Of a stretch of 64,000 nucleotides of DNA, positions 28,012-47,460 are shown in pieces. The notes beneath the pieces are model-generated. The model ran no database searches and was not told where the DNA came from. It worked only from the letters and a program-made list of their open reading frames with translations. Where the stretch lies: assembly GCF_030143245.1 (NCBI RefSeq), contig NZ_JARJNS010000004.1, forward strand, positions 372,001 through 436,000, written 5' to 3'. The position numbers and the translations under genes are program-made. Numbering within the stretch: position 1 is the stretch's first letter; each line of letters begins with the position of its first letter. This DNA is from Rhabdaerophilum sp. SD176. Its GTDB lineage: Bacteria > Pseudomonadota > Alphaproteobacteria > Rhizobiales > Beijerinckiaceae.

Positions 28012-29028
28012 ATGGATGACATCATCAAGCGCAATCCGCTCCGGAGCCTGATCATCGCGATCCTGATCGCGGTGTTCCTCTGGCTTGTCTTCGCGCCCTG
28101 GCCGCCGGAACTGGTGGCGAAATGGGGCCGCAAGCAGATCTTCCTCAACGCGCTGCTCGGCGGAATCACGCTTGGCGCGCTGTACTTCCTCGTCGCCGCC
28201 GGTTTCACGCTGATCTTCGGCCTAATGCGGGTCGTCAACCTTGCCCATGGCTCGCTTTTCCTGCTCGGCGGCTATCTCGGCTACGAAATTTCCAGCCTTA
28301 CCGGCTCCTGGTTCATCGCCTTTCCTGTGGTGTTCCTCGTTGTCGGCCTGCTTGGCCTGCTCATGCAGCGCTTCATCTTTTCGAAAATGGAGGGCGAGGA
28401 ACTGCGGCAAACGCTGGTCAGCATCGGCATTTCCATCGTCCTCGCCGATCTTATGCTCTGGCTCTGGGGCGGCCAGTCCTACTCGATCCTCGCGCCCGGC
28501 TTCCTCACCGGGCCGATGGAACTGCCGATCATCAACTCGATCAATGCCAGCACCGGCGCCACCAACTGGCTGCGCTACCCGGCGGTGCGGATCTGGATCC
28601 TGATTGCCGCCATCGTCATCGGCGTGGCGATGTGGCTGGTCCTGAACCGGACAGCGCTTGGCATGCTGATCCGCGCCGGCGTGGATGACCGCGAGATGCT
28701 TGCCGCTTCCGGCGTGCGAATCCAGCTCGTCTTCCTCGCTGTGTTCGGCTTCGGCGCCGGCCTTGCGGGCATGGCGGGCATTATCGGCGGCACCTTCCAG
28801 TCGCTCTCGCCGGGCGAGGATACGCGATTCCTGCTGGCCAGCCTCGTCGTTGTCATTGTCGGGGGCATGGGCTCGATTGTCGGTGCGGCCCTCGGCTCGC
28901 TGATCATCGGCGTCACAGAGCAGATGGGCTTCGTCTATGCGCCAACCTATTCGGTGGTCTTCACCTTCCTGATCATGGCCGCCGTGCTGGCTTTCCGCCC
29001 CCATGGCCTGCTCGGGGTGAGGCGCTAG
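28012..29028 (+). CDS. LivH-type ABC transporter permease
   Basis: The 338-residue permease of the branched-chain/HAAT family has an extra N-terminal hydrophobic helix. It then has the LivH hallmark FLNALLGGITLGALYFLVAAGF and TLIFGLMRVVNLAHGSLFLL (given in two parts), and a C-terminal SLVVVIVGGMGSIVGAALGS followed by FRPHGLLGVRR. It pairs with the LivM-type permease that starts three bases after its stop. ATG at 28012. It is the first gene of an 18-gene same-strand run with very short gaps. Confidence 0.92.
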   Translation: MDDIIKRNPLRSLIIAILIAVFLWLVFAPWPPELVAKWGRKQIFLNALLGGITLGALYFLVAAGFTLIFGLMRVVNLAHGSLFLLGGYLGYEISSLTGSWFIAFPVVFLVVGLLGLLMQRFIFSKMEGEELRQTLVSIGISIVLADLMLWLWGGQSYSILAPGFLTGPMELPIINSINASTGATNWLRYPAVRIWILIAAIVIGVAMWLVLNRTALGMLIRAGVDDREMLAASGVRIQLVFLAVFGFGAGLAGMAGIIGGTFQSLSPGEDTRFLLASLVVVIVGGMGSIVGAALGSLIIGVTEQMGFVYAPTYSVVFTFLIMAAVLAFRPHGLLGVRR

Positions 29029-29031
29029 GCC

Positions 29032-30096
29032 ATGGCGATGACCGACCACGCCCCCCGTTTCGCCAACCGCGCCGACCAGAAACTCTGGTTCGAGCGCATC
29101 CCCGCGCCCTGGTGGGCGCTGGCGGTGGTGCTGCTGTTCCTTCCGGTCGTGGCCAACAATTTCTGGCTGTTCCAGATCATGGGCTGGACCTTCATTCTCG
29201 GCATGATCGGGCTCAGCCTGATGTTTCTTGCCGGCTATGGCGGTATGGTCAGCTTGCTGCAGATGACCGTGGCCGGGATGGCCGGCTACATGGTGGCGAT
29301 CCTCGGGACGTCGGGCACGGTCACCGTCAGCCTCGGCCTTGCCTGGTGGATCGTCCTGCCCGCCGCCTTCCTGATCGCCGCGCTTTTTGCCACGGTTTCC
29401 GGTGCCCTCGCGGTGCGGACAGAGGGCATCTACACAATCATGATCACGCTCGCCATCGCGGCGGCATTCTTCTATTTCACCCGGCAGAACTACACGATCT
29501 TCAACGGCTATTCCGGGTTCAACCTTGTCCTGCCGCCGCAGCTTTTCGGCGTGAACTGGCGCGATCCCGTGCCCTTCTACTATCTCAGCCTCGCCTTGGC
29601 CTCCTTGTCCTATGGTGCAGTGGTCTATGTCTCGCGCTCGCCGTTCGGCCTCGCCTTGCAGGGCGTACGGGACAATCCCCGCCGGATGGCCGCGCTCGGC
29701 TTCAACGTCACCGCCCATCGTGTCGCGGCCTATGCGCTCGCCAGCGTCTTCGCCTCGGCTGGCGGCATCCTTCTGGTCTGGCAAAATGCCCAGATCGCGC
29801 CGGGCACGATCGGCATTCCCGCCGCGATCGATGTGCTCGTCGTGGCTGTGGTCGGCGGCATGAGAAGGCCGCTCGGGCCCTTCATCGGCGCCTTCATCTA
29901 TGTGATGCTGCAAGTCTTCTCGCCGGATATCCTCGGCTTTTTCGGCTTCTCCGCCGAGCGTTTCAAGCTGATCATCGGCCTCGGCTTCCTCGCGGTCGTG
30001 CTGTTCTCGCCCGATGGCGTGCTCGGCCTCTGGGACCGCTGGCGCGCGCGCCGCAGGCAGCAGCAGGACCAGCAGGCAGGAGGAGGTGCGGCATGA
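29032..30096 (+). CDS. LivM-type ABC transporter permease
   Basis: The 354-residue permease carries LivM features: the repeated helices with MIGLSLMFLAGYGGMVSLLQM, the ATPase-contact loop LALQGVRDNPRRMAALGFNV, and the conserved VLVVAVVGGMRRPLGPFIGA. The long soluble N-terminus typical of enteric LivM is short here. The C-terminal tail after SPDGVLGLWDRW is basic and glutamine-rich. It overlaps the LivG-type gene by 4 bp (ATGA). Confidence 0.92.
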   Translation: MAMTDHAPRFANRADQKLWFERIPAPWWALAVVLLFLPVVANNFWLFQIMGWTFILGMIGLSLMFLAGYGGMVSLLQMTVAGMAGYMVAILGTSGTVTVSLGLAWWIVLPAAFLIAALFATVSGALAVRTEGIYTIMITLAIAAAFFYFTRQNYTIFNGYSGFNLVLPPQLFGVNWRDPVPFYYLSLALASLSYGAVVYVSRSPFGLALQGVRDNPRRMAALGFNVTAHRVAAYALASVFASAGGILLVWQNAQIAPGTIGIPAAIDVLVVAVVGGMRRPLGPFIGAFIYVMLQVFSPDILGFFGFSAERFKLIIGLGFLAVVLFSPDGVLGLWDRWRARRRQQQDQQAGGGAA

Positions 30097-30896
30097 ACGC
30101 CCCCGTCACACCGCCACGGCCGGTCGCCCTTGGCCAGAGCCATGTCAGCGCAGGCAACGCGCTGGAACTGCGGGGCATCACCAAGATGTTCGGCGCGCTG
30201 GCTGCCATATCCGATGTGACGCTCTCGGTCCGCCCGGGCGAACGGCGCGCCGTGCTTGGCTCGAACGGCGCCGGCAAGACCACTTTGTTCAACTGCATCA
30301 CCGGCGATTTCCTGCCGACAGCCGGGCTGATCCGCTTCTTCGGTGAGGATGTCACCACCTTCCCGCCGCATGAGCGGATCCGGCGCGGCCTGCGCCGTAC
30401 CTACCAGATCTCCTCGCTTTTCGCCGGCCTCTCGGTGATCGACAATGTCTATCTGGCCTGCCGGGGCGTCTCGCGGAATCGCTTCTCGCTGATCCGCCCG
30501 CGGCGCGACGATGCCCTCGTCCATGCGGCCGAGACGCTGGTCGAGGCCGTGCATCTGAGCGCGGAGAAGGACCGGCTCGTCGGCGAACTCGCCTATGGCC
30601 AGCAGCGCCAGCTCGAAATCGCGCTCGCCTTGTCCGGTGCGCCGCGCTTCATCCTGTTCGACGAGCCGGCGGCGGGCCTCTCGCCGACCGAGCGGCGCGA
30701 CCTCGTGTCGATCCTCACCACGTTGCCCGGCCATATCGGCTACATCATCATCGAGCACGACATGGATGTGGCTTTGCGCGTCGTCGAGAGCGTGACGATG
30801 ATGCATAATGGCCGCATCTTCAAGGAAGGCCGGCCGGAGGAGATCGAGGACGATCCCGAGGTGCAGGAACTTTACCTCGGAGGCGGCCATGAGTGA
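30093..30896 (+). CDS. LivG-type ABC transporter ATP-binding protein
   Basis: The 267-residue ATPase has Walker [10 protein letters not shown], the LivG-type inserted loop after [17 protein letters not shown], a signature motif [12 protein letters not shown] (Y-G-Q-Q form common in LivG), Walker [14 protein letters not shown] and H-loop IEHDMDV. The ATG at 30093 overlaps the LivM stop, and its own stop overlaps the next start by 8 bp, so the ATPase genes are translationally coupled to the permeases. Confidence 0.93.
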
Positions 30897-33114
30897 ACGC
30901 CCCGTCCGCGGCGCCGGCGCGCCGATCCTGCAACTCCAGGGCGTCAACGTCTTCTATGGCCGCTCGCATGCCGTGCAGGGTGTCGATCTCGCCCTCCATT
31001 CGGGCGTACTCTCGGTGGTCGGCCGCAACGGCATGGGCAAGACCACCATGTGCAAGGCCATCATGGGACTCGTGCCGGTCTCGTCCGGCTCGATCCGCTT
31101 CATGGGCGAGGAACTGGTTGGCCGCACCTCCGCTGAGATTGCCCGGCTGGGCATTGGCTATGTGCCGCAGGGCAGGCGACTCTGGCGGTCGCTGACGGTG
31201 GACGAGCATCTCCGCCTGATGTCGCGCGGGAAAGGCGCCTGGACGCCGGAGCGCATCTACGAAGTCTTCCCGCGCCTCGCGGAACGGCGGCGCAATGGCG
31301 GCGGCCAGCTCTCGGGCGGCGAGCAGCAGATGCTGGCGATCAGCCGCGCCCTGCTCATGAATCCGCGCCTGCTCATCATGGACGAGCCCACCGAGGGCCT
31401 CGCCCCGGTCATCGTCGCCCATGTCGAGGAAACGCTGGTGCGCCTCGCGGCCGAGGGCGACGTCTCGATCCTCGTGATCGAGCAGAATATCGGCGTTGCG
31501 ACCCAGATGTCGGACACGATCGCCATCATGGTCAATGGCCGGATCCACCGCGTCATCGCCTCGTCGATCCTCGCCGCCGACCGCGATCTCCAGCAGCGCC
31601 TGCTCGGCGTCGGCCGGCACAGCCATGACGAGACCGAGCCCGCCGCTACCGGAGCGCCTTCCGGCGCTGCCGGCCCGGCCGCCCCGGCCCCGCAGGGCCC
31701 CATCCGGGTCTACAATGCCAATCCCACACTCCCGACGCGCTGGTCGCAGGATGTGCCGGCCGCCCGGATCGAGGCGCAGGCCCGCACCATCTCGCGGCCG
31801 ACCCTCGCCACGATCGACGGCCGGCGTGTCGGCGATGTCTCACCGCTCGCGGCCCGCGCGCCGCAGGAGCCGCATGTCATCATCGCCGGCACGCTCGATA
31901 CCAAGGGCGACGAACTGCGTTTCCTGCGCGACGCGATCAAGGCCGCGGGCTTGCGCACCCGCCTTGTCGATCTCTCGACCAATGGCCGCAACCAGGGCGC
32001 CGATGTCTCGGCGCAGGAAGTGGCCCTGGCCCTGCCGACCGGCTCGGCCGGCATTGCCTCTGGCGATCGCGGCAAGGCCGTCGCCGCGATGACCGAGGCC
32101 TTCCGCGCCTGGATGGCCCGCCAGCAGGGCGTGATCGGCATTCTCTCGGCTGGCGGATCGGGGGGCACTGCCATCGCCACCGCCGGCATGCAGACCCTGC
32201 CGGTCGGGGTCCCCAAGCTTATGGTTTCCACCATGGCCTCGGGCAATGTGGCGGCCTATGTCGGAGCGACCGACATCACGATGATGCATTCCGTGACCGA
32301 TGTTCAGGGGCTGAACCGCGTCTCGCGGACAGTACTCGGCAATGCTGCGCAGGCCATGGCAGCCATGGCGCGGAATTTCCATGAACAACAGCACGGGCCC
32401 GCGACGCGCCGGCCAGAGGCCGAAAAACCGTTGGTCGGGCTGACCATGTTCGGCGTCACCACGCCCTGCGTCCAGCAGGTGACGCGGCTGATCGAGCGGG
32501 AATGGGAGCCGCTTGTCTTCCATGCCACCGGCACGGGCGGCCGCTCCATGGAGAAGCTGATCGATTCCGGGCTCGTGCCCGGAGTGATCGACGTCTCGAC
32601 CACTGAGATCTGCGACATGATGATGGGCGGCATCCTGCCCGCCACCGAAGATCGCTTCGGCGCGGTGATCCGCACCAGGATTCCGTATGTCGGTTCGGTC
32701 GGTGCGCTCGACATGGTCAATTTCGGCGCGCCAGAAACCGTGCCGCAGCATTATCGCCAGAGGCTCTTCTACCCGCACAACCCGCAGATCACCCTGATGC
32801 GGACTACGGCGGAGGAGAATGCCCGGATGGGCCGCTGGATCGGCGAGCGCCTCAACCAGATGGAAGGGCCCGTGCGCTTCCTCCTTCCGGAAGGCGGCGT
32901 CTCGGCTCTTGATGCGCCGGGGCAGCCCTTCTGGGATCCCGCCGCCGATGCCGCTCTTTTCGACGCCTTGGCCTCGACGATCCGCGTCACCGCAACCCGG
33001 CAGCTCATCCGGCTTCCGCATCACATCAACGACCCCGCCTTTGCGGCGGCCCTCGTGCAGCATTTCCGTGCGCTGCATCAGGGCCGCTTCCGGGGCGCCA
33101 CCGGCAGGACCTGA
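30889..33114 (+). CDS. LivF-type ABC ATPase fused to a Tm-1-like (UPF0261) domain
   Basis: The 741-residue protein has two clear parts. Residues 1-240 are a complete LivF-type ATPase: Walker A GRNGMGKT at 45-52, LSGGEQ at 141-146, Walker B LLIMDEP at 161-167, then IEQN. A Pro/Ala/Gly-rich linker spans ~241-327. Residues ~328-741 are UPF0261/Tm-1-like: [58 protein letters not shown] and [11 protein letters not shown]. In the tomato Tm-1 protein the UPF0261 part is followed by a TIM-barrel domain; here that barrel is the next gene (33118). The fusion ties an importer ATPase to a putative ATP-binding enzyme of unknown reaction. ATG at 30889; no frameshift at the junction. Confidence 0.9.
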
Positions 33115-33117
33115 GAC

Positions 33118-33972
33118 ATGCCCCGCTTTTCCCGCACCGAATTGCTCGCTCTCTACCGCGCGATGATCGCGCGGGGAGAGCCGATTGTCGGCGGCGGTGC
33201 CGGCACCGGCCTTTCCGCGAAATGCGAGGAAGCCGGCGGCATCGACCTGATCGTCATCTACAATTCCGGCCGGTTCCGCATGGCAGGGCGCGGCTCGCTT
33301 TCCGGCCTGATGCCTTACGGCGACGCCAATGCCATCGTCATGGACATGGCAAGCGAGGTGCTGCCGGTGGTGAAGAAGACCCCGGTTATTGCCGGGGTCT
33401 GCGGCACCGATCCCTTCCGCTCGATGGATGTCTTCCTCGACGATGTCGCTCGGATCGGCTTTTCCGGCGTGCAGAACTTCCCGACTGTCGGGCTGATTGA
33501 CGGCGTCTTCCGCGCCAATCTCGAGGAAACCGGCATGGGCTTCGGCCTCGAGGTCGAGATGATCCGGCTGGCCGGGCAGAAGGGCCTGCTGACCACGCCC
33601 TATGTCTTCTCGGAGGCTGATGCCGCCGCCATGGCCGGCGCGGGGGCGGATATCATTGTCTGCCATCTCGGCCTGACGACCGGCGGTTCGATCGGCGCGG
33701 AAACCGCGCTCAAGCTGAAGGATTGCCCGGCCATTGTCGATGCCTGGGCGGCGGCGGCCCTCGCCGTCAAGCCGGATGCGATCATCCTCGTCCATGGCGG
33801 GCCGGTGGCCGAACCGCCGGATGCCGATTTCATCATGAAGAACACCCGCCATTGCCACGGCTTCTACGGCGCCTCCTCGATGGAGCGCCTGCCGGTGGAA
33901 GTGGCGATCCGCGAGCAGACGAGGGCTTTCAAGACAATCAGCCGCACGGGCGGCACGCCGGGTCCGGCGTGA
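33118..33972 (+). CDS. Phosphoenolpyruvate-hydrolase-family TIM-barrel protein (Tm-1 C-terminal-like)
   Basis: The 284-residue protein has the TIM-barrel signature of the phosphoenolpyruvate hydrolase-like / TIM-barrel signal-transduction family: [57 protein letters not shown] and [15 protein letters not shown]. It corresponds to the C-terminal domain of Tm-1-like proteins, whose N-terminal half is encoded by the preceding gene. The starts are 3 bp apart from the previous stop, and the two products probably form one enzyme or complex. The reaction is not known. Confidence 0.9.
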
Positions 33973-33996
33973 GGCAGGCTGAGGGAGGAACGTGAC

Positions 33997-36621
33997 ATGA
34001 CGGGGCAACTGATCGGAACCCTCATTCTCTGGCTTATCGTGGCGGTGATCGTGATCGCGATCATCGTCTATCTGGTGAACTGGCTCTATCGCCGCTCGTC
34101 GAAGGAGGTGTCCTTCGTCCGGACCGGCCTGTTTGGCGAAAAGGTGGTGATCAATGGCGGCGCCTTCGTGCTGCCGATCATCCATGATGTCACGCCGGTG
34201 AACATGAATGTCCTGCGCATGGCCGTTACCCGGGCCAACCAGGACGCGCTGATCACGCGGGACCGGATGCGCGTCGATATCGATGCGGAATTCTATGTCC
34301 GCGTTCGCCCGGACAAGCCCTCGGTCTCCATCGCCGCTGCCACTTTGGGTCGGCGGACCCTCCAGCCCGACCAGCTCAATGCGCTGCTCTCTGGCAAGTT
34401 CATTTCCGCCCTGCGCTCGGTCGCTTCGGAAATGTCGATGGAGGAAATGCACGAGCAGCGCGGCCTCTATGTTCAGCGCGTGCGCGATGCCGCCGTCGAC
34501 ATGATGGAACAGAACGGTCTTGTACTGGAATCGGTGGCGATTACGGATCTCGACCAGACCGACCTGCAATATTTCAACCCGTCCAACCGGTTTGATGCCG
34601 AAGGTCTGACGCGGATCATCGAGGAGATTGAGGAAAAGCGGAAGCTCCGCAATGACATCGAGCAGGATTCGATGATCCGTATCCGCACCCGCAATCTCGA
34701 GGCGGAGCGGCAGGCCCTTGATATCGAGCGCGAGAGCGAGACCGCCCGGCTGGACCAGCAGCGCGAGATCGAGATCCGGCGGGCCATGCAGCGCGCCGAG
34801 GTGGCCCGCGAGCGGGCGGCCCGCGATACCGAGGCCGAGCAGGCGCAGATCCTCTCGCGCGAGGAGATCGAGAAGTCGAAGATCGCCAATGAGCGCGCCA
34901 TCAGCGAGGCGCGGATCTCCTCCGACCGCGAAGTCCGCCAGCGCGAGATCGAACGCACCAAGGCGGTTGAATCCGCCGAGATTCTCGCCCGCGAGGAGAT
35001 CGAGAAGGCCCGGATCTTCAACGACAAGACCATCCAGGCTGCCCGGATCGCCTCCGAACTGGAAACCCGCCAGAAGGAGATCGAGCGGACACGGATGCTC
35101 GAGGCGGCGGAAATCGCCGCGCGGGAATCGACCGAAAAGGCCCGCATCACGCAGGAAGCCCTCGTCAATGCAGAGCGGATCGGGCGCGAGCAGGAGATCC
35201 GCAATCTCGAGATCGCCCGGAACCGCGCGCTGGACGAGGCCGAGATTGCCGCCCGCGAAGCGGTGGAGAAGGCCCGGATCGCGCAGGAAAACGCTGTCAC
35301 CGCCGAGCGGATCAGCTTCGAGGAAGGCCGTCGCAAGCTGGAAATCGAGCGCAACAAGGTGGTCGAAACGGCAGAGATCACCGCCCGCGAGGCCACCGAA
35401 GCCGCCCGCATTGCGCAGGAAAAGGCCATCGCTGCCGAGCGCATCGCCTCCGAACTCGAGACCCGCCGGCTGGAAATCCGCCGGACCGAGGAACTCGAAG
35501 CTGCCGAGATTCACCGCCGCGATGCGGTCGAGCGGCAGCGTATTGCCGCCGAGCTGAAGATCGATGAGGAACGCATCGCTTCGACCCGGACGCGCGAGAT
35601 TCTGCAGATCGAGCAGAAGCGCGTCGTCGAACTGGCCGAGGAAGACCGCGCCATCACGCTCGCCGCGAAGAAGGCCGAGCGTACCGATGCGGACAAGGCG
35701 CTGCGTCAGGCCGAGATCGTCGCCAAGCAGGAGGTCGAGCGGACCGATGTCGCCCGCGAGCAGGCGCTGGAGGCTGCCCGCCTCGAACGCAAGCGCGTGA
35801 TCGAGCAGCTGGAAATTGCCCGGGTCCAGGCGCTGCAGGAAGCGCAGATCGTCTCGAACGAGGAGGTAGAGCGCGCCCGGATCGCTTCGGATCGTGGCCT
35901 CGATGCCGCCCGGGTCGGCCGCCAGCGCGACCTGCGCAAGCTCGAGATCGAGCGCGAGCGCGATGTCGAGAATGCCTCGATGGAAAAGGCGATCACGCTC
36001 TACACCAAGTCACTCGAGGAGAGTGCGGCGGCGGTGCAGGCGGAAATCGCCAAGGCCAAGGCCGTCGAGGCCGCGGAGATGGTCACCACCGTGCGCGAGC
36101 GCGAGACGGCGAAGCGCCGCAAGACCGTGGAAGTCATGATGGCGGAGAAAGCGGCCGAGGAAACCCGCATTGCTGCCGAGGCTGACAAGGTCCGTCGCGC
36201 GGTCGAGGCCGAGGCCCAGCGCCTGCTCTACGAGGCCGAGAATGTGCTGACGGATGGCGCCCGCTATGGCCTGTTCCGTCGCCGCCTGCTCGACCGGATC
36301 GAGGGTATCGTCCGCGAGAGCGTCAAGCCGATGGAGAAGATCGACGGCATCAAGATCCTCCATGTCGATGGCCTGTCCGGCTCCGGTTCCGGCTCCGGCC
36401 GCACCCCGACCGACGAGGTGATCGAGAGCGCGCTGCGCTACCGTGTCCAGGCACCGCTGATCGACGAGGTGCTGAAGGAGATCGGCATCGAGGGCGGCAG
36501 CCTCGCCAAGATGGGCGGGCTGATGCGCGAGGCCTCCGACATGCAGCGCGTCGCCAAGGATGCCCAGCCGCCCAAGCCCAGGGAAGGTGGCGGCAAGGAT
36601 GGCGGCGGTGAGAAAAAGTAA
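33997..36621 (+). CDS. Flotillin-like SPFH protein with long hendecad-repeat coiled coil
   Basis: The 874-residue protein has a membrane helix (residues ~8-28), an SPFH domain (~35-210: FVRTGLFGEKVVINGGAFVL and the ISALRSVASEMSMEEMHEQR segment) and a very long charged helix (~210-780). Within the helix, residues 281-544 are six tandem 44-residue units, each beginning like EAAEIAAREAxEKARI and ending like xLEIERxxxV. A 25-residue break follows (545-569) and then two more units (570-657). Forty-four is four hendecads, indicating a continuous coiled coil. A Gly/Ser-rich hinge (~790) leads to a short C-terminal region ending in a Gly/Lys tail. Flotillins scaffold membrane microdomains; here it sits inside a catabolic operon. 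Confidence 0.92.
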   Translation: MTGQLIGTLILWLIVAVIVIAIIVYLVNWLYRRSSKEVSFVRTGLFGEKVVINGGAFVLPIIHDVTPVNMNVLRMAVTRANQDALITRDRMRVDIDAEFYVRVRPDKPSVSIAAATLGRRTLQPDQLNALLSGKFISALRSVASEMSMEEMHEQRGLYVQRVRDAAVDMMEQNGLVLESVAITDLDQTDLQYFNPSNRFDAEGLTRIIEEIEEKRKLRNDIEQDSMIRIRTRNLEAERQALDIERESETARLDQQREIEIRRAMQRAEVARERAARDTEAEQAQILSREEIEKSKIANERAISEARISSDREVRQREIERTKAVESAEILAREEIEKARIFNDKTIQAARIASELETRQKEIERTRMLEAAEIAARESTEKARITQEALVNAERIGREQEIRNLEIARNRALDEAEIAAREAVEKARIAQENAVTAERISFEEGRRKLEIERNKVVETAEITAREATEAARIAQEKAIAAERIASELETRRLEIRRTEELEAAEIHRRDAVERQRIAAELKIDEERIASTRTREILQIEQKRVVELAEEDRAITLAAKKAERTDADKALRQAEIVAKQEVERTDVAREQALEAARLERKRVIEQLEIARVQALQEAQIVSNEEVERARIASDRGLDAARVGRQRDLRKLEIERERDVENASMEKAITLYTKSLEESAAAVQAEIAKAKAVEAAEMVTTVRERETAKRRKTVEVMMAEKAAEETRIAAEADKVRRAVEAEAQRLLYEAENVLTDGARYGLFRRRLLDRIEGIVRESVKPMEKIDGIKILHVDGLSGSGSGSGRTPTDEVIESALRYRVQAPLIDEVLKEIGIEGGSLAKMGGLMREASDMQRVAKDAQPPKPREGGGKDGGGEKK
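34837..35967 (+). repeat. Tandem 132-bp (44-codon) coding repeat in the flotillin gene
   Basis: Eight units of 44 codons can be aligned. Six are contiguous (residues 281-544), then comes a 25-residue irregular segment, then two more (570-613 and 614-657). Protein similarity between units is high at the AEI/EKARI/AERI/LEIER positions, while DNA identity is partial, so the duplications are old or under coding selection. Confidence 0.85.
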
Positions 36622-37088: not shown

Positions 37089-37089
37089 C

Positions 37090-38376: not shown

Positions 38377-38862
38377 ATGGCGAAAGTTCCCGTGCAATTC
38401 CGCCTCAACGGCTCCGACCGAGCCGCCTTCGCCGATCCGGCGGACAGCCTGCTGACCGTCCTGCGGCGCGGCCTGAACGATTTCGGCCCGAAATATGGCT
38501 GCGGGCAGGGCACTTGCGGCACCTGTTCGGTCCTGATCGACGGCGGGCTGCGCCTCGCCTGCCTGACGTTGGCCGCTTCCTGCGAGGGAGCAAGCATCGA
38601 GACCGTCTCCGGAATGGCTGATGGGCCCAACCTGCATCCATTGCAGACTGCTTTCATGGAGCATTTCGCCGCGCAATGCGGCTTCTGTACGCCGGGCATG
38701 CTGACGGCGGCAAAAGCGCTGCTGGACCGCAACCCCAATCCCAGCCGCGAAGACGTGATCGATGCCATTGCCGGCAATATCTGCCGTTGCACGGGCTACG
38801 AGCCGATCATCCAGGCCATCCTCGCCGCGGCCCGGACGCTGCCGGCGCAGCGCCGATCCTGA
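38377..38862 (+). CDS. CoxS-like 2Fe-2S subunit of a molybdenum hydroxylase
   Basis: The 161-residue small subunit has all eight cysteines: a plant-type ferredoxin cluster (YGCGQGTCGTCSVLIDG plus a downstream C in LACLT) and the family-specific helical 2Fe-2S cluster (QCGFCTPGM and NICRCTGYEPI). It conducts electrons between the Mo and FAD subunits. ATG at 38377 with a GGAGG upstream. Confidence 0.95.
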   Translation: MAKVPVQFRLNGSDRAAFADPADSLLTVLRRGLNDFGPKYGCGQGTCGTCSVLIDGGLRLACLTLAASCEGASIETVSGMADGPNLHPLQTAFMEHFAAQCGFCTPGMLTAAKALLDRNPNPSREDVIDAIAGNICRCTGYEPIIQAILAAARTLPAQRRS

Positions 38863-38876
38863 GGAGGCAACCCGCC

Positions 38877-40598: not shown

Positions 40599-40599
40599 G

Positions 40600-41634
40600 A
40601 TGGCCCGCTACAAGGGACGTGGCATGGCGTCCGTCAACTATCCGATCGGCATGAACCTTGGCGGCGATCCCAGCCAGGCGCTGATCCATTCCAATCCGGA
40701 CGGGAAATTCACCGTCGCACTTTCGGCGATCGATCTTGGCCAGGGCATGAAGCAGGTGACCCGGCAGGTTGCGGCGGAAACGCTGGGCGTGCCGATCGAG
40801 GATGTCTATGTCGACACCGCCGACAGCGATACCGGCCCGCATGACATGGGCTCCTTCGCCTCCCGCGGCACGCATCGCATGGGCAATGCCGTCATCGCGG
40901 CCGCCCGCGAGGCAAGGGGCGTGCTGCTGGAGGCGGCGGCCGAGGAACTCGAGGTCAATGCCGCCGATCTCGTGACTGACGGCAAGGGCAATATCCATGT
41001 GAAGGGCGCACCCTCGCGCGCCATCACAGTCCGCGCCACCGCGCAGGCGGCCCAGTTCAAGCAGGGCAAGACGATTGCCGGGCGCGGTATCTTCCTCATC
41101 CCGCTCTCCTCTGTCGATCCCGAGACGGGCGAGATGAACCCGAACACCGCCTTCGCCCATGCCTGCCTCGTGGCGGATGTCGAGGTGGATGACGAGACCG
41201 GCGAGGTCTCCGTCCTTGGCATGAGTTCGGCCTATGAACTTGGCCGGGTCATCAACCCCAAAATGGTCGAGCAGCAGCTCGTTGGCGGCGCCTGGATGGG
41301 CATCAGCCATGCCCTCTACGAGACGCCGGAGCCCTATTATCCGAACCCGGATCACGGCCCGCGAGATTTCAACGAATATCTGATGCCCGGCCCGGGCGAT
41401 CTCGCGCCCTACAGCATCACCATCCTCGAACGGCCTGCGCCGGACGGGCCCTTCGGCGGCAAGGGCCCGGGCGAGATGTGCGCGAACCCGGTCCTGCCGG
41501 CCGTCGCCAATGCGGTCTACAATGCCGTCGGCGTGCGGGTGAACGACCTGCCGATCACGCCTGAGAAGATCCTGCGCGGCATCCGGGCGAATGGCGGCGC
41601 GAAGCCGCAGGCGCGGCGCGGCGGAGCGCTCTGA
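40600..41634 (+). CDS. Molybdenum hydroxylase large subunit, C-terminal half (split CoxL/XdhB)
   Basis: The 344-residue product is the second molybdopterin-binding domain of the large subunit. It contains IDLGQGMKQVTRQVAAETLG, DTGPHDMGSFASRGTHRMG and, near the C-terminus, GPFGGKGPGEMCANPVLPA, whose GE carries the catalytic glutamate. It begins with its own ATG at 40600, one base after the stop of the first half and seven bases after AAGGAGG, so translation is efficient and coupled. The two halves must assemble to form the active site. The hydroxylated substrate is unknown. Confidence 0.92.
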   Translation: MARYKGRGMASVNYPIGMNLGGDPSQALIHSNPDGKFTVALSAIDLGQGMKQVTRQVAAETLGVPIEDVYVDTADSDTGPHDMGSFASRGTHRMGNAVIAAAREARGVLLEAAAEELEVNAADLVTDGKGNIHVKGAPSRAITVRATAQAAQFKQGKTIAGRGIFLIPLSSVDPETGEMNPNTAFAHACLVADVEVDDETGEVSVLGMSSAYELGRVINPKMVEQQLVGGAWMGISHALYETPEPYYPNPDHGPRDFNEYLMPGPGDLAPYSITILERPAPDGPFGGKGPGEMCANPVLPAVANAVYNAVGVRVNDLPITPEKILRGIRANGGAKPQARRGGAL

Positions 41635-41637
41635 GCC

Positions 41638-42522
41638 ATGACGATCCGCGCGCTCCCCAACGGTCTGTCCAGCCCCGAGGCCCTGTCGGAGGCCCTGCGC
41701 GCGGCCTTCTATCTTGCCGATGATGGCATCGCTACGGCGGCGTTCCTGTCGCTGGCGCTCGGGAAGCCCTTGCTGCTCGAAGGGGCGCCTGGCGTCGGCA
41801 AGACCGAGGCGGCGAAGGCTCTGGCCGGCATTCTCGGCCGCCAGTTGATCCGCCTGCAATGTTTCGAGGGCATCGATGCCAACGCGGCCCTCTACGAATG
41901 GAACTATCCGCGCCAGATGCTGGCCATCCGGCAGGCGCGGGAGGGCGAGAGCGCCGATCTCTACCGCGACGACTTCCTGATCGAGCGGCCGATGCTCTCG
42001 GCCCTCAGGCGGCCGGAATCCACCGTGCTGCTGATCGACGAAATCGACCGGTCGGACCATGAATTCGAGGCGTTCCTGCTCGAATTCCTGTCGGATTTCT
42101 CGATCTCCATCCCCGAGCGTGGTACCTTGCGGGCCGCGGAACGGCCGGTCGTGATCCTCACCTCGAACCGCACGCGGGACCTGCACGAGGCGCTCCGCCG
42201 CCGCTGCATCTACCACTACATCGCCTATCCCGATCCGGCGCGAGAGGCGGCGATCATCATGCTCCGCTCCTCGGCCGTGGCCGAGCAGACCGCCCGCGCC
42301 GTGGTCCAGGCCGTCGGCCTGCTGCGGCAGGAACCGCTGACCAAGCCGCCCGGCGTGGCCGAGGCGGTGGACTGGGCGGAGGCCGCGACCGCCCTGGCGC
42401 GGACGGGCGCCGCCTGGCCGGATGCCTTCCGTCGGTCCATTGGCGCAGCGCTGAAGGACGAGGAGGATCTCGCCTTCCTCCGCCCGCGGCTGGATTCCCT
42501 CATCGCGGCGGTGGCGGCATGA
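41638..42522 (+). CDS. MoxR-type AAA ATPase (CoxD-like maturation factor)
   Basis: The 294-residue AAA+ protein has Walker A GAPGVGKTEAAKAL, Walker B VLLIDEIDRSDHEFEAFLLE, sensor 1 VILTSNRTRDLHEAL and an arginine finger region (RRRCIYHYI). MoxR proteins paired with VWA proteins insert or mature metal centres; CoxD helps build the Mo-site cluster of CO dehydrogenase. Here it follows the split large subunit by three bases and overlaps the VWA gene by 4 bp. Confidence 0.92.
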   Translation: MTIRALPNGLSSPEALSEALRAAFYLADDGIATAAFLSLALGKPLLLEGAPGVGKTEAAKALAGILGRQLIRLQCFEGIDANAALYEWNYPRQMLAIRQAREGESADLYRDDFLIERPMLSALRRPESTVLLIDEIDRSDHEFEAFLLEFLSDFSISIPERGTLRAAERPVVILTSNRTRDLHEALRRRCIYHYIAYPDPAREAAIIMLRSSAVAEQTARAVVQAVGLLRQEPLTKPPGVAEAVDWAEAATALARTGAAWPDAFRRSIGAALKDEEDLAFLRPRLDSLIAAVAA

Positions 42523-43661
42523 CGGACAGGCGCGCCAACCCCCTGCCGGCCGCGAGCCGCCCCTTTGTCGCGTTCCCCGCCTTGCTGCGCGAGCATGGCT
42601 TCGCCGTGGCACCCGACCAGACCCTGACCTTCCTCGAGGCGATCACCGTGCTCGGGCCGCGCTCGCTGGAGCAGGTCCGGCAGGCTGCCTGGGCGACGCT
42701 GGCGCCGCAGCCGCACCAGCGCGGGACCTTCGACACCCTGTTCGATTTCCACTTCCTCGGTGGCTTGGCCGAACCGGGCGAGGCGGATGACTGGCAGCCC
42801 GACGAGGAGCTGAAGGTCCAGGAGGACGAGGGCAGCCGCGAGATCCTGATCGGCGAGAGCATCAACGAGACCGGCCAGCAGGCCATCGAGGCCGAGGCTC
42901 TGGCCATCCGGGCGCTGCGTCCGCCGGATGCCGCCGATACGCTGGCGCGCTTCGCCCGCGACCTGCCGGCCGCCCTGCCACGCCGGCGCGGCTATCGCTA
43001 CCGCCGGGCCCGCCGCGGCGCGACGATCGACCTCGCCCGCAGCCTGCGCGCCGCGATCCGCACCGATGGCGATGTGATGGCCCTCAGCCGCCGCCGCCGC
43101 GCCAGCCGGCCCCGGCCGATCCTGCTGATGATCGACGTGTCCGGCTCGATGAAACAGCGCAGCGATGCCAATCTCGCGCTGGCCCATGTGATCGTGCAGA
43201 GCGCGCCGCGCGTCGAGGTGTTCACCTTCGGCACGCGGCTCACCCGCGTCACCCGGGCGCTGAAGCTGCGGAACCGCGAGCAGGCCCTCGCCACGGCATC
43301 CGGCCTTGTCGCGGATTGGGATGGCGGCACGCGGATCGGCGATGCGCTGGCGGCCTTCCTCGCCGTGCCGCGATTTGCGGGCTATGCGCGCGGCGCCGTG
43401 GTGGCGATCCTCTCGGACGGGCTCGAACGCGGCGATCCCGCCGCCATGATCGGCGCCGTCCGTCGTCTGGCCACCCGCGCCTTCCGCATCGACTGGTTCT
43501 CGCCGCTGGCGGCCGACCCGGATTACCAGCCGCAGACCGAGGCGCTGGCGGCGATCCGGCCGATGCTGGGCAGCCTCGCCAATGGTAATTCGACCGCCGC
43601 GATCTGCCGGCACCTGTTGGCGCTCGGGCAAGGCCCCGCCCGGCCGGGGAGGGCGGCATGA
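42519..43661 (+). CDS. VWA-domain protein (CoxE-like)
   Basis: The 380-residue protein has an N-terminal CoxE-type region and, from about residue 200, a von Willebrand A domain with the MIDAS sequence LMIDVSGSMKQRSD, then VFTFGTRLTRVTRAL and the late acidic segment AILSDGLERGDP. It is the usual partner of MoxR ATPases, here probably in maturing the Mo hydroxylase encoded just upstream. It overlaps the genes on both sides by 4 bp (ATGA). Confidence 0.9.
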   Translation: MTDRRANPLPAASRPFVAFPALLREHGFAVAPDQTLTFLEAITVLGPRSLEQVRQAAWATLAPQPHQRGTFDTLFDFHFLGGLAEPGEADDWQPDEELKVQEDEGSREILIGESINETGQQAIEAEALAIRALRPPDAADTLARFARDLPAALPRRRGYRYRRARRGATIDLARSLRAAIRTDGDVMALSRRRRASRPRPILLMIDVSGSMKQRSDANLALAHVIVQSAPRVEVFTFGTRLTRVTRALKLRNREQALATASGLVADWDGGTRIGDALAAFLAVPRFAGYARGAVVAILSDGLERGDPAAMIGAVRRLATRAFRIDWFSPLAADPDYQPQTEALAAIRPMLGSLANGNSTAAICRHLLALGQGPARPGRAA

Positions 43662-44536
43662 TCGACGCACATTTCCATATCTGGCGGCAGGCGGACCTGC
43701 CCTGGCTCGTGGGACCGATGCAACAGCGCATTTTCGGCCCCTACGAGCCGATCCGCCGCGATTATCCGATCGAGGAATATCTCGCCGATGCCGCGGCGGC
43801 CGGCATGACCGGCGCGGTCTATGTCCAGGCGAACTGGGCGCCGGGCCGGGCCCTGGACGAGGTGCGCTTCGTGGCGGATTCCGCCGGGCGGGCCGGCTTC
43901 CCCGTCGCGATCGTCGCCTATGCCGACATGCTGGCTGGGGATATACGCCCGGCTCTGGACGCGCTCGCCACAGAGCCCTCGGTGCGCGGTGTCCGCATGC
44001 AGCTCCATTGGCACGCCAATCCGCTCTACCGGTTTGCCTCCGGGCCGGATCTTGCCCGCGACCCCGTGCTCCAACGCAATGTTGCGGCACTCGCCGCCTT
44101 TGGCTGGAGCTTCGATCTTCAGGTCTTTGCGGGGCAGATGGAGAGCGCGGCAGAACTCTCCGCCGCCTGTCCGGGCGTTACATTCGTGCTCCAGCATGCG
44201 GGCATGCTGGAAGACCTGTCGGAGGCGGGGATCGCGCAATGGCGTGAAGGCATGGCCCGGCTGGCGGCGCAGCCGAATATCGTCAGCAAGCTTTCGGGCC
44301 TCGGCACCTTCCTGCGGAAGAACGACCCCGCCCATACCGCCTTTATCCTGCGCGAGACTGTCGCGCTGTTCGGCGCCGGGCGCTGCCTGTTCGGCTCGAA
44401 TTTCCCGATTGAGAAGCTCTGGACGACCTATGCCGACCTTGTCGCCGCCCACCGCTCCGCCGCCGCCGCGCTGCCGGAGGCGGACAGGGCGCTGATTTTC
44501 GCGGGCACCGCCCGCAAAACCTACAAACTGACATAA
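43658..44536 (+). CDS. Amidohydrolase of the 2-pyrone-4,6-dicarboxylate-hydrolase type
   Basis: The 292-residue TIM-barrel metal-dependent hydrolase has MIDAHFHIWRQADLPWLVGP (HxH metal site), MQLHWHANPLYRF, FVLQHAGM and the C-terminal CLFGSNFPIEKLW. This pattern fits COG3618 amidohydrolases, which open lactone rings such as 2-pyrone-4,6-dicarboxylate or fuconolactone. In this operon it may hydrolyse a lactone or cyclic amide made after hydroxylation. ATG at 43658 overlapping the VWA stop. Confidence 0.9.
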   Translation: MIDAHFHIWRQADLPWLVGPMQQRIFGPYEPIRRDYPIEEYLADAAAAGMTGAVYVQANWAPGRALDEVRFVADSAGRAGFPVAIVAYADMLAGDIRPALDALATEPSVRGVRMQLHWHANPLYRFASGPDLARDPVLQRNVAALAAFGWSFDLQVFAGQMESAAELSAACPGVTFVLQHAGMLEDLSEAGIAQWREGMARLAAQPNIVSKLSGLGTFLRKNDPAHTAFILRETVALFGAGRCLFGSNFPIEKLWTTYADLVAAHRSAAAALPEADRALIFAGTARKTYKLT

Positions 44537-44551
44537 CGAGGAGGAACCCCC

Positions 44552-45400
44552 ATGCCGCTGGAAATCAAGGTGCTCGACTATGGCGACATCGAGCTGGAAT
44601 CGAGCTTCCTCGTGCTGGGGCGCGGCTGCGGCCAGCGCAAGCGCGTTTATACCTATGGCTTCCTGATCCTCGGCGGCCCCTGGCCAGTCGTGGTCGATAC
44701 CGGCTATCGCCACAACCAGATCATGGAAAGCCTCGGCATGCGCGGGCTGCAATTCCACGAGAATATGATCGAGAACCAGCTTCAGAAACACGGCGTCCGC
44801 ATGGGCGATGTGCGTTATGTCGCCCATACCCACCTGCATATCGACCATGCCGGCAAAGATGAGCTGTTCCCGATGAACACCACGGTGATCATCAACCGGC
44901 GCGAACTGGAATATTCGGTATCCGGGCTGATGCATCCGCAATATCCCGCGCCGGATATCAAGCATCTGATCGACCGCCTCCACACCAAGCATGCCTTGCG
45001 GCTGGAGGATCTCGAGCTCAGCGGCATGATCGAACTGTTCCCCGGCTGTTATCTCGAAGCGGCCGGCGCCCATACCGAGGGCTCGATGAATGTCCATGTC
45101 GATACGGCCGAGGGCCGCGCGACGATCTGCGGCGATGTGATTTACGATTTCAACGACCAGATCGTTGACCCGTATCACGAGATCCATGCCGACGAGCCGC
45201 GCGTCACCGGCAATCACGGCACCACGAAGCGGCAGGAAAAAGCAGCGATCAAGAAGTTGCTCAACACCTCGCGCTTCCTGCTTCCCGTGCACGACAAGCC
45301 CGCGAAGATCGAGGCGGGGCAGGTGGTCGGCCGGCTGGACATGGCCGTGCCGGGCCCGATGGTCCAGAGCGTGCCGAAGCGGAACTGGTTCCCGGTCTGA
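44552..45400 (+). CDS. Metallo-beta-lactamase-fold lactonase (AHL-lactonase-like)
   Basis: The 282-residue protein has the HTHLHIDHAGKDELF zinc motif (HxHxDH), the later ligands in AGAHTEGSMNVHV and TICGDVIYDFND, and the closing LLPVHDKPAKI. It is similar in layout to N-acyl-homoserine lactonases (AiiA type), but members also hydrolyse other lactones and esters. Among lactone-opening enzymes in the same operon, a catabolic rather than quorum-quenching role is more likely. GAGGAGG precedes the ATG. Confidence 0.9.
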   Translation: MPLEIKVLDYGDIELESSFLVLGRGCGQRKRVYTYGFLILGGPWPVVVDTGYRHNQIMESLGMRGLQFHENMIENQLQKHGVRMGDVRYVAHTHLHIDHAGKDELFPMNTTVIINRRELEYSVSGLMHPQYPAPDIKHLIDRLHTKHALRLEDLELSGMIELFPGCYLEAAGAHTEGSMNVHVDTAEGRATICGDVIYDFNDQIVDPYHEIHADEPRVTGNHGTTKRQEKAAIKKLLNTSRFLLPVHDKPAKIEAGQVVGRLDMAVPGPMVQSVPKRNWFPV

Positions 45401-45449
45401 CACCGGGAACCGCCCGAACCCCGAGGATCCGGAAGACGGAGGAACGCCC

Positions 45450-47039
45450 ATGACCACGCATGTCGCGCTTGACCCGGCCTTTGCCGATCTGGTCGATCTC
45501 TGGGCCCCCGTGCGCCAGATCGGCACCGGCTTCGACTTCACCGAAGGGCCGGTCTGGCACCCGCGGGACCAGTATTTGCTGTTCTCGGACATGCCCGGCG
45601 ATGTCCGCCGCCGCTGGGACCGGAGCGGCATCACCGAGGTGATGCGCCCGGCCAACAAATGCAACGGCATGACCTATGATGCCGATCTGAACCTCATCGT
45701 CTGCGAGCACGCGACCTCGACTTTGGTGCGCGAGCGGTCCGATGGCCGGCGGGAAATCCTCGCCTCCCATTTCGACGGGCGCGAGCTCAACAGCCCGAAT
45801 GATGTTGTCGTGAAATCCGACGGGGCGATTTATTTCTCCGACCCCTGGTATGGCCGCATGCCGGTTTACGGCGTCGAGCGGCCGCGCCAGCTCGGCTTCC
45901 AGGGCGTCTATCGCATCGCGCCCGGCGGTGGTGCGCCGCAATTGCTGGTCGAGCGGATGATGTTCGACCAGCCGAACGGCCTCTGCTTCTGCCCGGACGA
46001 AAGCAAGCTCTACATCAACGACACGGTCCAGCATGTGATCCGCGTCTTCGATGTCCAGCCCAATGGCCTGCTGGCCAATGGCCGGGTCTTTGCCTCCGGC
46101 ATCGTCTCGGCCAGTGAGCCTGGCGTGCCGGACGGCATGAAATGCGACCTGTTCGGCAATGTCTGGGTCTGCGGCCCCGGCGGCGTCTGGGTCTATGCGC
46201 CGGATGGCCGGCTGATCGGCAAGCTGCGCGTGCCGGAACTCGTCGGCAATCTCGCCTGGGGCGGGCCGGATTTCCGCACCCTGTTCCTCACCGCCACCCA
46301 TTCGGTCTATGCGGTGGATACAAAAGTTGGCCCCCGCAGCGAGCCCTATATGCGCCAGGCGCCTGCCCGGAGCAGCGCGGCGCCGCAGGCCGGCGCCAGC
46401 ATCGCCCGGAACGGCACGAAAAAGGCCGCGCCGGGCTATGCGCTTGATCCCGCCCGCTGCGCGGTGATCATCCAGGACATGCAGAACGATGTCGTGATGG
46501 AGGGCGGGGCCTTTGCCGCATCGGGTTCGCCCGTGCATTGCCGCGAGCAGAACGCGATCGGCAATGCCGCGCGCCTTGCCGCTGCGGCGCGGGCCAAGGG
46601 CATCCCGGTGATCCATGTCTGGTTCGTGGTCGAGCCCGGCTGCCCGGGCGTGACGATGAACGCCCCGCTCTTCGAGGGGCTGGCCGACGCGCGGGCGCTG
46701 GTGCGCGGCACCTGGGGTGTCGCCCCGGTGCCGGGGCTGGAGGCGCAGCCGGGCGACCATGTCGTCGAGAAGCAGCGCATGAGCGCCTGGGAAGGCACCC
46801 GCCTCGAAACCGTGCTCAAGGCCCTGAAGCGCGACATCGTGGTGGTGACCGGCGCCTGGACCAACATGTCCATCGAGCACACTTCGCGGACGGGTGCGGA
46901 CAAGGGTTATTTCATGGTCGTGCCGGAGGATTGCTGCTCGACCATGAATGCCGAATGGCACACGGCCTCGGTGAATTACGCGCTCCAGAATGTGGCCGTC
47001 ATCACCGACGCCGAGGCGCTGATCGGCGCCTGGAACTGA
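45450..47039 (+). CDS. SMP-30/gluconolactonase domain fused to isochorismatase-like cysteine hydrolase without the cysteine
   Basis: The 529-residue protein joins two enzymes. Residues ~10-300 are a six-bladed SMP-30/LRE lactonase: GFDFTEGPVWHPRDQYLLFS, NSPNDVVVKSDGAIYFSDPW, and PDGMKCDLFGNVWVCGPGG with the metal-site residues. A linker of ~35 residues leads to an isochorismatase-like domain (~335-529) with the Asp of IIQDMQNDVV and the Lys of VEKQRMSAWEG. The nucleophile position of the TNxCVE-type motif reads TNMSIEHT, a serine. This would abolish normal amidase chemistry unless serine or water substitutes, as in isochorismatases that lack cysteine. A second lactone-hydrolysing step in the operon is implied. 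Confidence 0.9.
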   Translation: MTTHVALDPAFADLVDLWAPVRQIGTGFDFTEGPVWHPRDQYLLFSDMPGDVRRRWDRSGITEVMRPANKCNGMTYDADLNLIVCEHATSTLVRERSDGRREILASHFDGRELNSPNDVVVKSDGAIYFSDPWYGRMPVYGVERPRQLGFQGVYRIAPGGGAPQLLVERMMFDQPNGLCFCPDESKLYINDTVQHVIRVFDVQPNGLLANGRVFASGIVSASEPGVPDGMKCDLFGNVWVCGPGGVWVYAPDGRLIGKLRVPELVGNLAWGGPDFRTLFLTATHSVYAVDTKVGPRSEPYMRQAPARSSAAPQAGASIARNGTKKAAPGYALDPARCAVIIQDMQNDVVMEGGAFAASGSPVHCREQNAIGNAARLAAAARAKGIPVIHVWFVVEPGCPGVTMNAPLFEGLADARALVRGTWGVAPVPGLEAQPGDHVVEKQRMSAWEGTRLETVLKALKRDIVVVTGAWTNMSIEHTSRTGADKGYFMVVPEDCCSTMNAEWHTASVNYALQNVAVITDAEALIGAWN

Positions 47040-47109
47040 TCCCCGGCGGGATGGATTCAGCCGAAGGCTTCGCCTAGTGTTTCCCGGGCGGCAAACCGGA
47101 ACGGGGTCC

Positions 47110-47460
47110 ATGGGCAAGGCAGGCGGCATTTCCATCCACGCGGTTGATGTCTCGACCGGCCGGGTCGCGGCGGGTCTGGCCGTGGAGTTGCACCGGCTCG
47201 AACCCCTGCCGGCTCTGGTCGCGACCGGGATGATCGGCCCGAACGGCCTGCTCGACCACCCTTCTGCGTCGGGCGAGGGCATCACGGCAGGGCTCTACGA
47301 GGTCCGTTTCGATCTCGGCGCCTTCTTCGCGGCGGCGGGCCGGGAGGCTCCTTTCCTCGATCTGGTCCCGTTCCGCTTCCATGTCCGGCAGGTCGCCGAG
47401 CATTATCACCTGCCGTTCAAGTTCACGCCCTTCGGCTTCTCGCTGTTCCGGGGTGCCTGA
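47110..47460 (+). CDS. Hydroxyisourate-hydrolase-like (transthyretin-fold) protein
   Basis: The 116-residue protein has the transthyretin-like fold of 5-hydroxyisourate hydrolases: SIHAVDVSTGRVAAGLAVEL (first catalytic His) and the C-terminal EHYHLPFKFTPFGFSLFRGA (second His). In true HIUases the C-terminal signature is YRGS and a conserved Arg lies in a DGR loop; here these read FRGA and NGL. The protein may therefore act on a different ring. ATG at 47110. It is the last plus-strand gene of the run and is convergent with the deaminase gene, whose stop codon begins at the next base. Confidence 0.85.
   Translation: MGKAGGISIHAVDVSTGRVAAGLAVELHRLEPLPALVATGMIGPNGLLDHPSASGEGITAGLYEVRFDLGAFFAAAGREAPFLDLVPFRFHVRQVAEHYHLPFKFTPFGFSLFRGA

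Follow-up and report, generated by a model that had tools for sequence, protein, structure and literature searches.

A modular gene cluster of Rhabdaerophilum sp. SD176 with an ABC importer, a UPF0261/TIM-barrel pair, a flotillin and a split molybdenum hydroxylase

What is the function of a run of 18 same-strand genes in which an ABC importer, a UPF0261/TIM-barrel pair, a flotillin, a split molybdenum (Mo) hydroxylase, and several hydrolases are encoded one after another? The run lies at 28012-47460 of the window, by which we mean the whole 64,000-nucleotide stretch that was analysed (positions 372,001 to 436,000 of contig NZ_JARJNS010000004.1 from Rhabdaerophilum sp. SD176). We propose that the run forms a modular operon for the catabolism of a small aromatic or N-heteroaromatic acid or phenol, with a phosphorylation step carried out by the UPF0261 protein. 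We give this reading a probability of roughly 45%. The parts are already known, and the combination is without a description that we could find: a literature search for flotillin, molybdopterin, and isochorismatase together returned none, and neither did the literature on UPF0261 or Tm-1-like proteins, on COG5441/COG5564, or on acetovanillone with AcvF/UPF0261. (The accessible parts of PMC6867892 and PMC2364660 give no function, and a term search of the accessible part of PMC12167813 finds none of the sought terms.)

Conservation and modularity of the gene run

The gene run is more than a chance assembly, because 87 of the 94 unique loci that have at least four of its genes keep one strand and one order. 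(We pooled 111 loci and removed 15 whose core sequence of MoC, the second Mo-subunit gene, was identical to another, which left 96 unique loci; labels beginning with G and L are ours for genomes and loci.) The seven loci that fail this strict test (L064, L110, L130, L131, G461, G617, and G349) do so through paralogue matches or absent genes. The long order is common to Bosea, Phreatobacter, Xanthobacter, Bradyrhizobium, Shinella, and Yoonia. A search of genome contigs with MoC, from which 80 of 496 loci were retained, led to Bosea, Phreatobacter, Xanthobacter, Aquabacter, Microvirga, Bradyrhizobium, and others, and the retained loci that are long enough have a single order except for a gap at the Amidohydro_2 gene in L064 and L105. 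The TIM-barrel gene, PEPH, has matches at E <= 0.001 in 55 of 298 genomes of the window's family, and 18 of the 20 PEPH regions that we fetched have the long order as far as the region reaches (the exceptions are a 3.9-kb contig with the middle genes only and G038, which is discussed below). In the same class, five more distant genomes (G601, G625, G797, G966, and G813) also preserve the order, at about 48-80% identity from the first permease gene (perm1) to the isochorismatase gene; G601 lacks the metallo-beta-lactamase (MBL) fold gene, and the G813 contig stops after Amidohydro_2.

The run itself consists of 18 complete open reading frames (ORFs) on the + strand, without internal stops; the gaps range from −8 to +70 bp, and GGAG lies within 18 bases upstream of the start in 12 of the 18. 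The same-strand unit begins before 28012, with a binding protein, an Fe-ADH-like gene, and an AraC gene. The features are as follows.

24471-25736, +: substrate-binding protein of the HAAT importer (Peripla_BP_6; domain match)
25755-26909, +: Fe-ADH-like protein, an optional part (domain match)
27007-27843, +: AraC-family regulator, likely cognate (kept upstream of perm1)
28012-29028, +: BPD_transp_2 permease 1, perm1 (domain match)
29032-30096, +: BPD_transp_2 permease 2 (domain match)
30093-30896, +: LivG-type ATPase (domain match)
30889-33114, +: LivF-type ATPase, Pro/Ala-rich linker, and UPF0261 (Tm-1 N-domain) in one ORF, 741 amino acids (aa)
33118-33972, +: PEPH, a PEP_hydrolase-like TIM barrel (Tm-1 C-domain) with a fold like phosphoenolpyruvate (PEP) mutase/isocitrate lyase
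33997-36621, +: flotillin (Band_7 and Flot), 874 aa, long stalk with 44-residue repeats
36651-37088, +: SRPBCC protein 1 (domain match)
37090-37542, +: SRPBCC protein 2 (domain match)
37544-38365, +: FAD subunit of the Mo hydroxylase (domain match)
38377-38862, +: [2Fe-2S] subunit of the Mo hydroxylase (domain match)
38877-40598, +: Mo subunit part 1 (MoN; NdhL-like, MoCoBD_1), Pro/Ala-rich tail of about 130 aa
40600-41634, +: Mo subunit part 2 (MoC; NdhM-like, MoCoBD_2), own GGAG site and ATG
41638-42522, +: MoxR-type AAA+ ATPase, CoxD-like (domain match)
42519-43661, +: VWA/CoxE-like protein (domain match)
43658-44536, +: Amidohydro_2 hydrolase (nearest named family L-fuconolactonase)
44552-45400, +: MBL-fold hydrolase, lactonase-like (domain match)
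45450-47039, +: SGL (SMP-30) propeller fused to an isochorismatase-like domain in one ORF, 529 aa
47077-47460, +: TTR/HIUase-like protein (ATG at 47110), an add-on of near relatives

An earlier note, made from the DNA alone, had described a one-strand, operon-like run of 18 genes and named domains in it. Both points agree with our results, as does its view that the run is one functional unit in which an importer feeds a split Mo hydroxylase with MoxR/VWA partners and then hydrolases. It had also named the AraC gene at 27007 as the regulator, and AraC lies directly upstream of perm1 in the long-cluster regions that extend that far, with the binding protein upstream of AraC in relatives whose regions reach it. 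The Fe-ADH gene is matched at the window's position in G014, G179, G601, G625, G966, Shinella, and Yoonia, but the regions of genera g44 and g12 have nothing that matches it. The fusions are constant across the unique loci: LivF and UPF0261 share an ORF in 77 of the 77 loci that have both, and so do SGL and isochorismatase in 80 of 80 (in L112, before duplicates were removed, this frame is broken). The scattered distribution without co-occurrence that would have spoken for unrelated genes was not seen, although the unit is accessory and patchy between genomes, because, with the window's genome counted, MoC homologues at E <= 1e-60 occur in only 16 of the 398 genomes sampled from the phylum and in 8 of the 385 from the class.

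The one gene of the run that falls outside the conserved unit is the last. The earlier note had counted the HIUase-like gene as a member, but it is a lineage-specific add-on, found in the window and in three near relatives, which makes 4 of the 96 unique loci. It scores 71.9 bits against the TIGR02962 cut-off of 87.45 while exceeding the cut-off of PF00576, and its C-terminus reads FRGA instead of the YRGS of the family. A purine or urate pathway is out on the same grounds (score under the cut-off, catalytic residues missing, 4/96 loci).

Shorter versions of the cluster fall into two kinds. First, a short core of AraC, SRPBCC-1, FAD, FeS, the two Mo chains, MoxR, VWA, and Amidohydro_2 occurs in G461, G349, and G617, which belong to the window's taxonomic order, and in Sinorhizobium sp. 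BG8, with neither a flotillin nor a Tm-1 pair in the stretches read. In Nonomuraea, the genes from FAD through Amidohydro_2 are present, with no AraC or SRPBCC matches; the haloarchaeon Salinigranum has the four Mo-enzyme chains with a cyclase-family gene and an SRPBCC gene; and G854 and G940 have the four chains alone. Second, the operon is modular because the front end (permeases, binding protein, LivG, LivF~UPF0261, flotillin, two SRPBCC genes, and in some cases PEPH) also occurs without the Mo enzyme, in stretches of 30-40 kb from G311, G349, G416, and a Variovorax paradoxus replicon. UPF0261, PEPH, the SRPBCC pair, and the flotillin, to which the earlier note gave no role, thus prove to be a separable front end, and import handling and ring chemistry look like separate modules that are joined in this operon. 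(G349 and G416 carry a Mo short core and, elsewhere in the genome, a Mo-free front end; the G416 core is known from its MoC and SRPBCC-1 matches only.)

In Variovorax, annotated FAH, alpha/beta hydrolase, and amidohydrolase genes precede the Mo-free front end, and a VOC gene, two opposite-strand regulators, and then Rieske dioxygenase genes follow it. By eye, from N-termini, the front ends of G349 and G416 adjoin FAH-like and amidohydrolase-like genes, and that of G311 an amidohydrolase-like gene. The SRPBCC-2 relative of this version is longer (489-511 aa); in Variovorax, whose protein is the one inspected in full, the C-terminal part looks by eye like a quinone oxidoreductase. A still smaller trio of UPF0261, PEPH, and SRPBCC occurs in Azospirillum and, next to a sugar or BMP importer, in Terrarubrum, Bosea vestrisii, and Ensifer. 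The phylum search showed this trio in no more than 2 of its 28 new loci, which means that Tm-1 pairs do not generally have it. Two other results also blur a neat picture: G038 (L051), in its available 8 kb, has PEPH beside LivG but lacks the rest of the genes, and Amidohydro_2 is absent from its usual place in L064 and L105.

The importer, the UPF0261 pair, and the flotillin

The HAAT importer is complete by domain matches (binding protein, two permeases, and two ATPases), and it would take the compound into the cell. The closest solved structures of the binding protein are 4ZPJ, 4EY3, and 4EVQ; we take the last two to be HAAT binding proteins for aromatic acids.

The UPF0261 domain matches PF06792 at 202.1 bits and PF23189 at 300.2 bits (cut-offs 27) and NF002673 at 611 bits (vs. 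520). In structural alignments it is 35% identical to 9MPY, and its identity to Tm-1 is about 40%. The title of 9MPY describes Saro_1862, a UPF0261 domain protein of Novosphingobium aromaticivorans, with bound acetovanillone, and the accessible part of another report states that acetovanillone catabolism in this organism starts with a single-component kinase, MarK (PMC13101465). If Saro_1862 is MarK, as we infer, then the window's UPF0261 domain may be an aromatic kinase tied to the importer. Its fusion to LivF suggests phosphorylation on entry, as by the Novosphingobium aromatic-monomer kinase. PEPH, the PEP mutase/lyase-like TIM barrel, would work with it. UPF0261 and its TIM-barrel partner are reported to co-evolve, with a correlation of 0.886 (PMC5028733, in the part available). 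A different acetovanillone route is two-component and has no UPF0261 protein in the accessible part of its description (PMC9618137). Like the Saro_1862/MarK-type kinase and plant Tm-1, the window's UPF0261 matches over its full length, and like the bacterial Tm-1 pairs as described in the available text (PMC5028733), it has a PEPH partner gene. Unlike Saro_1862/MarK and Tm-1, it is fused to the ATPase of an ABC importer.

The predicted model of PEPH resembles PEP mutase and isocitrate lyase enzymes with modest confidence (pLDDT 69.2), and the UPF0261 model (79.5) has a high root-mean-square deviation to its structural matches, so we treat fold matches beyond the direct relatives as leads only. 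PEPH-like domains also turn up in other settings. On the NGR234 plasmid (L139, 11640-13469), a sigma-54 regulator beside a Tm-1 pair contains one (36% identity), which suggests a possible role of the TIM barrel in sensing a ligand. Beside UPF0261-PEPH-SRPBCC trios, the opposite strand encodes proteins of some 580-620 aa that include a PEPH-like domain (L201, 10487-12337; L202, 10453-12189; L203, 6016-7797). PEPH also matches 57 Klebsiella plasmid records, in which the rows shown cover residues 13-54 only, at 76% identity, as a short gene fragment.

The flotillin matches Band_7 (59.9 bits) and Flot (118 bits), and scores 27.5 bits against the FloT scaffold model NF058507 (477 positions), whose cut-off is 700. 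Like the flotillin/SPFH cages, it combines these two domains with a charged stalk. Unlike them, its gene lies inside a catabolic operon, and unlike the human cage, whose wall is given as 186 residues in the accessible part of PMC11260169, it has about 520 residues between the domain matches, part of them in repeats of 44 residues (37% identity at lag 44). In 76 sequences of the Mo version (with approximate starts), the flotillin is about 870 to 1541 aa long; those of the Mo-free version have 562, 690, 729, and 735 aa. We suggest that the flotillin collects the machinery at a membrane patch, where it may form a cage. As the genome's only Flot-domain match lies in the operon (the sole PF15975 match at E <= 0.001), a flotillin knockout has a clear predicted phenotype.

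The two SRPBCC proteins might pass the ligand on or anchor the oxidoreductase. A partial precedent is the 3-hydroxypyridine dehydrogenase HpdA of Ensifer adhaerens HP1, which reportedly is a Mo-type hydroxylase and is said to need a PEP-utilising kinase pair; we know of no flotillin, Tm-1 pair, or HAAT fusion in that system. Going by the accessible text, a CoxG homologue has been proposed as the partner of HpdA, and the window's Mo hydroxylase is likewise accompanied by SRPBCC genes. Recruitment of oxidoreductases to membranes has been reported or proposed for CoxG-type SRPBCC proteins (PMC4240915 and PMC11962113, in the parts available).

A bolder version of our proposal joins these elements: an ABC importer whose ATPase bears a kinase would couple import to phosphorylation of an aromatic compound, much as a phosphotransferase system does, and a tall, repeat-walled flotillin cage would enclose it with the oxidoreductase and hydrolases as a membrane metabolic compartment. 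We think it improbable that all of this is right. Our main reading, if right, would give a function to the widespread bacterial UPF0261/TIM-barrel pair, the relatives of plant Tm-1; ABC import would be physically tied to phosphorylation; and bacterial flotillins would gain a concrete, testable metabolic job.

The Mo hydroxylase and the hydrolases

MoN and MoC have their best solved match in nicotinate dehydrogenase (3HRD), the former to its large and the latter to its medium Mo subunit, with an identical split, and 4-hydroxybenzoyl-CoA reductase is also among the best-scoring solved relatives of both. Homology argues strongly for a four-subunit Mo hydroxylase of the nicotinate dehydrogenase type, with a distant similarity to the nicotinate enzyme itself. 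As in NdhFSLM of Eubacterium barkeri (3HRD), the Mo subunit is cut into two chains at the same point; the nicotinate dehydrogenase is described in the available text as having a split Mo subunit and separate FAD and 2Fe-2S subunits (PMC10331938). A frameshift as the origin of the split is ruled out, because MoN and MoC are separate ORFs in 89 of 89 unique loci. Unlike NdhFSLM, the window's operon has a Pro/Ala-rich tail on MoN (in 86/89 loci; it is missing in three short-core loci), SRPBCC genes, MoxR/VWA, and other hydrolases, and its FAD subunit scores best against xanthine dehydrogenase.

The cox operon (coxDE, coxG) is a second point of comparison. The window's operon shares the MoxR and VWA/CoxE partners, and CO dehydrogenase chains are among the solved matches of the Mo chains. 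The active-site loop of CoxL carries a Cu-binding Cys. The window's loop, AMRGFG, lacks this Cys, and the SRPBCC genes match PF10604, with the COXG model not among their matches. On the loop and the SRPBCC models, we reject a Cu-containing CO dehydrogenase. The enzyme, matured by MoxR/VWA, would instead add a water-derived oxygen to the ring or oxidise an aldehyde. (In Rhizobium etli, L204, 4014-11565, a 46% identical relative of the MBL gene lies beside a different Mo hydroxylase with large and FeS subunits, and XdhC is about 3 kb away; this is an independent link between MBL and Mo hydroxylases.)

At the level of folds, the Amidohydro_2, MBL, and SGL enzymes could then open the ring or a lactone. 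The nearest named family of Amidohydro_2 is L-fuconolactonase (105 bits, cut-off 400), and it is near 4DLF. The MBL protein is below the curated equivalog cut-offs of every listed lactonase, and Shinella and G601 lack its gene although they have the remainder of the unit. The ligands of MBL lactonases of the AHL/pyridoxolactonase group are HxHxDH, a later H, and D..Y and H; at these positions, the metal ligands and the D..Y pair are conserved in an 81-row alignment. The SGL ligands are conserved in the alignment. Isochorismatase-fold cysteine amidohydrolases have their catalytic Cys after a GxxTN motif. The window's domain and its relatives keep the Asp and Lys but have Ser (TNMS) at the usual Cys in 80/80, so a Cys-type amidase is unlikely. 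Of the import, hydroxylation, and stepwise ring hydrolysis that the earlier note envisaged, import, Mo oxidation, and ring opening fit, and the amide hydrolase is weak. Its idea of an N-containing ring gains some support from the nicotinate dehydrogenase match and from the CoxG partner proposed, in the text available, for 3-hydroxypyridine dehydrogenase.

Alternative readings and the surroundings of the unit

Our reading as an aromatic catabolic unit is supported by the conserved order, the 77/77 LivF~UPF0261 fusion, the acetovanillone in 9MPY, and MarK. The Mo-free front ends beside FAH, amidohydrolase, and Rieske dioxygenase genes point the same way, as do the match of MoN and MoC to NdhL and NdhM and the aromatic-acid binders among the solved relatives of the binding protein. 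Several observations weigh against it. The identity of Saro_1862 with MarK is our own deduction. The top solved match of the FAD subunit is xanthine dehydrogenase, with nicotinate dehydrogenase lower in the list. PEPH is missing from two Mo-free front ends. In the stretches covered from G461, G349, G617, Sinorhizobium sp. BG8, Nonomuraea, and the haloarchaeon, the Mo core is not accompanied by UPF0261, PEPH, or flotillin, so phosphorylation is dispensable in some versions. Finally, some neighbours lean toward sugar-like chemistry: the short core adjoins a ribose-type importer in G461 and G349, and Yoonia has an extra FAH gene near 2,4-didehydro-3-deoxy-L-rhamnonate hydrolase (412 bits, cut-off 500) and an alpha-ketoglutarate semialdehyde dehydrogenase-like gene (488, cut-off 770). 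Our ranked guess at the substrate class is therefore aromatic or N-heteroaromatic first and sugar-like second.

The alternative that survives best, although we consider it rather unlikely, is that an N-heterocycle or lactone-forming ring is hydroxylated and hydrolysed stepwise with no phosphorylation, and that UPF0261 and PEPH have another role such as signalling. This would account for the Mo core with Amidohydro_2 and no Tm-1 pair nearby (all of the genomes just listed except the haloarchaeon), for split Mo chains that are nearest to nicotinate dehydrogenase, and for the sigma-54 regulator, which indicates that the PEPH fold can be a sensor. It does not explain why UPF0261 is in the ORF of the importer ATPase in 77/77 loci or why a UPF0261 relative binds an aromatic catabolic substrate.

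A pathway for a sugar or sugar-acid lactone, in which a sugar-like aldehyde or hemiacetal becomes a lactone through the Mo enzyme and is then opened by the fuconolactonase-like, MBL, and SGL enzymes, seems unlikely to us. The kinship of Amidohydro_2 to L-fuconolactonase, the ribose-type importer beside the short core, the Yoonia FAH/SDR/ALDH genes, and Tm-1 pairs beside sugar ABC importers would fit it. However, the importer of the long cluster is of the HAAT and not the sugar type, no sugar-acid dehydratase domain is among the domain matches of the unit, the ligand in the structure of the UPF0261 relative is an aromatic ketone, and the best solved relatives of the Mo chains are nicotinate dehydrogenase and 4-hydroxybenzoyl-CoA reductase.

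Far less probable is the scavenging or quenching of a lactone signal such as an acyl-homoserine lactone (AHL), as opposed to a growth pathway. The MBL protein falls in the AHL-lactonase-like group with its ligands kept, and the front end is also in Variovorax VAI-C, which was isolated on AHLs according to the part of PMC8142574 available. But that is isolation history and not a gene test, Shinella and G601 do without MBL while keeping the rest, and an AHL needs no Mo hydroxylase. Lastly, we give almost no credence to a CO-dehydrogenase-like gas oxidation cluster, which the CoxM/S/L-type subunits, the CoxD/CoxE-like genes, and the CO dehydrogenase matches would suit, but which the AMRGFG loop and the PF10604 matches contradict and which would not need an importer or hydrolases.

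The contig that holds the window is 556 kb long and belongs to a 3.96-Mb genome in 25 contigs, and the closest named records are metagenome-assembled genomes of Beijerinckiaceae and 'Methylobacterium sp.'. In a consensus scan of 27700-47660, the only promoter-like site is on the − strand, and terminator-like sites number 14 (vs. 9.7 ± 2.9 in shuffles). In the tails beyond the unit (up to 6 kb), no gene family holds a fixed place across genera; ABC ATPases, TRAP proteins, and the few other families common to several genera are scattered in position and strand, and a flavodoxin-fold gene (azoreductase-like by eye) is downstream in 35 loci, all of them Bradyrhizobium. In the window, a TRZ/ATZ-type amidohydrolase gene (47461-49038, − strand; 8-oxoguanine deaminase-like, under cut-offs) faces the end of the run, and L035, L052, L054, and L080 have homologues downstream. 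Farther away, 56036-57391 encodes a Protoglobin domain fused to an MCP signalling domain, which is a haem-based receptor of the aerotaxis type, and DUF1365, FAD amine-oxidase-like, and photolyase genes lie in series at 18682-22455 (− strand).

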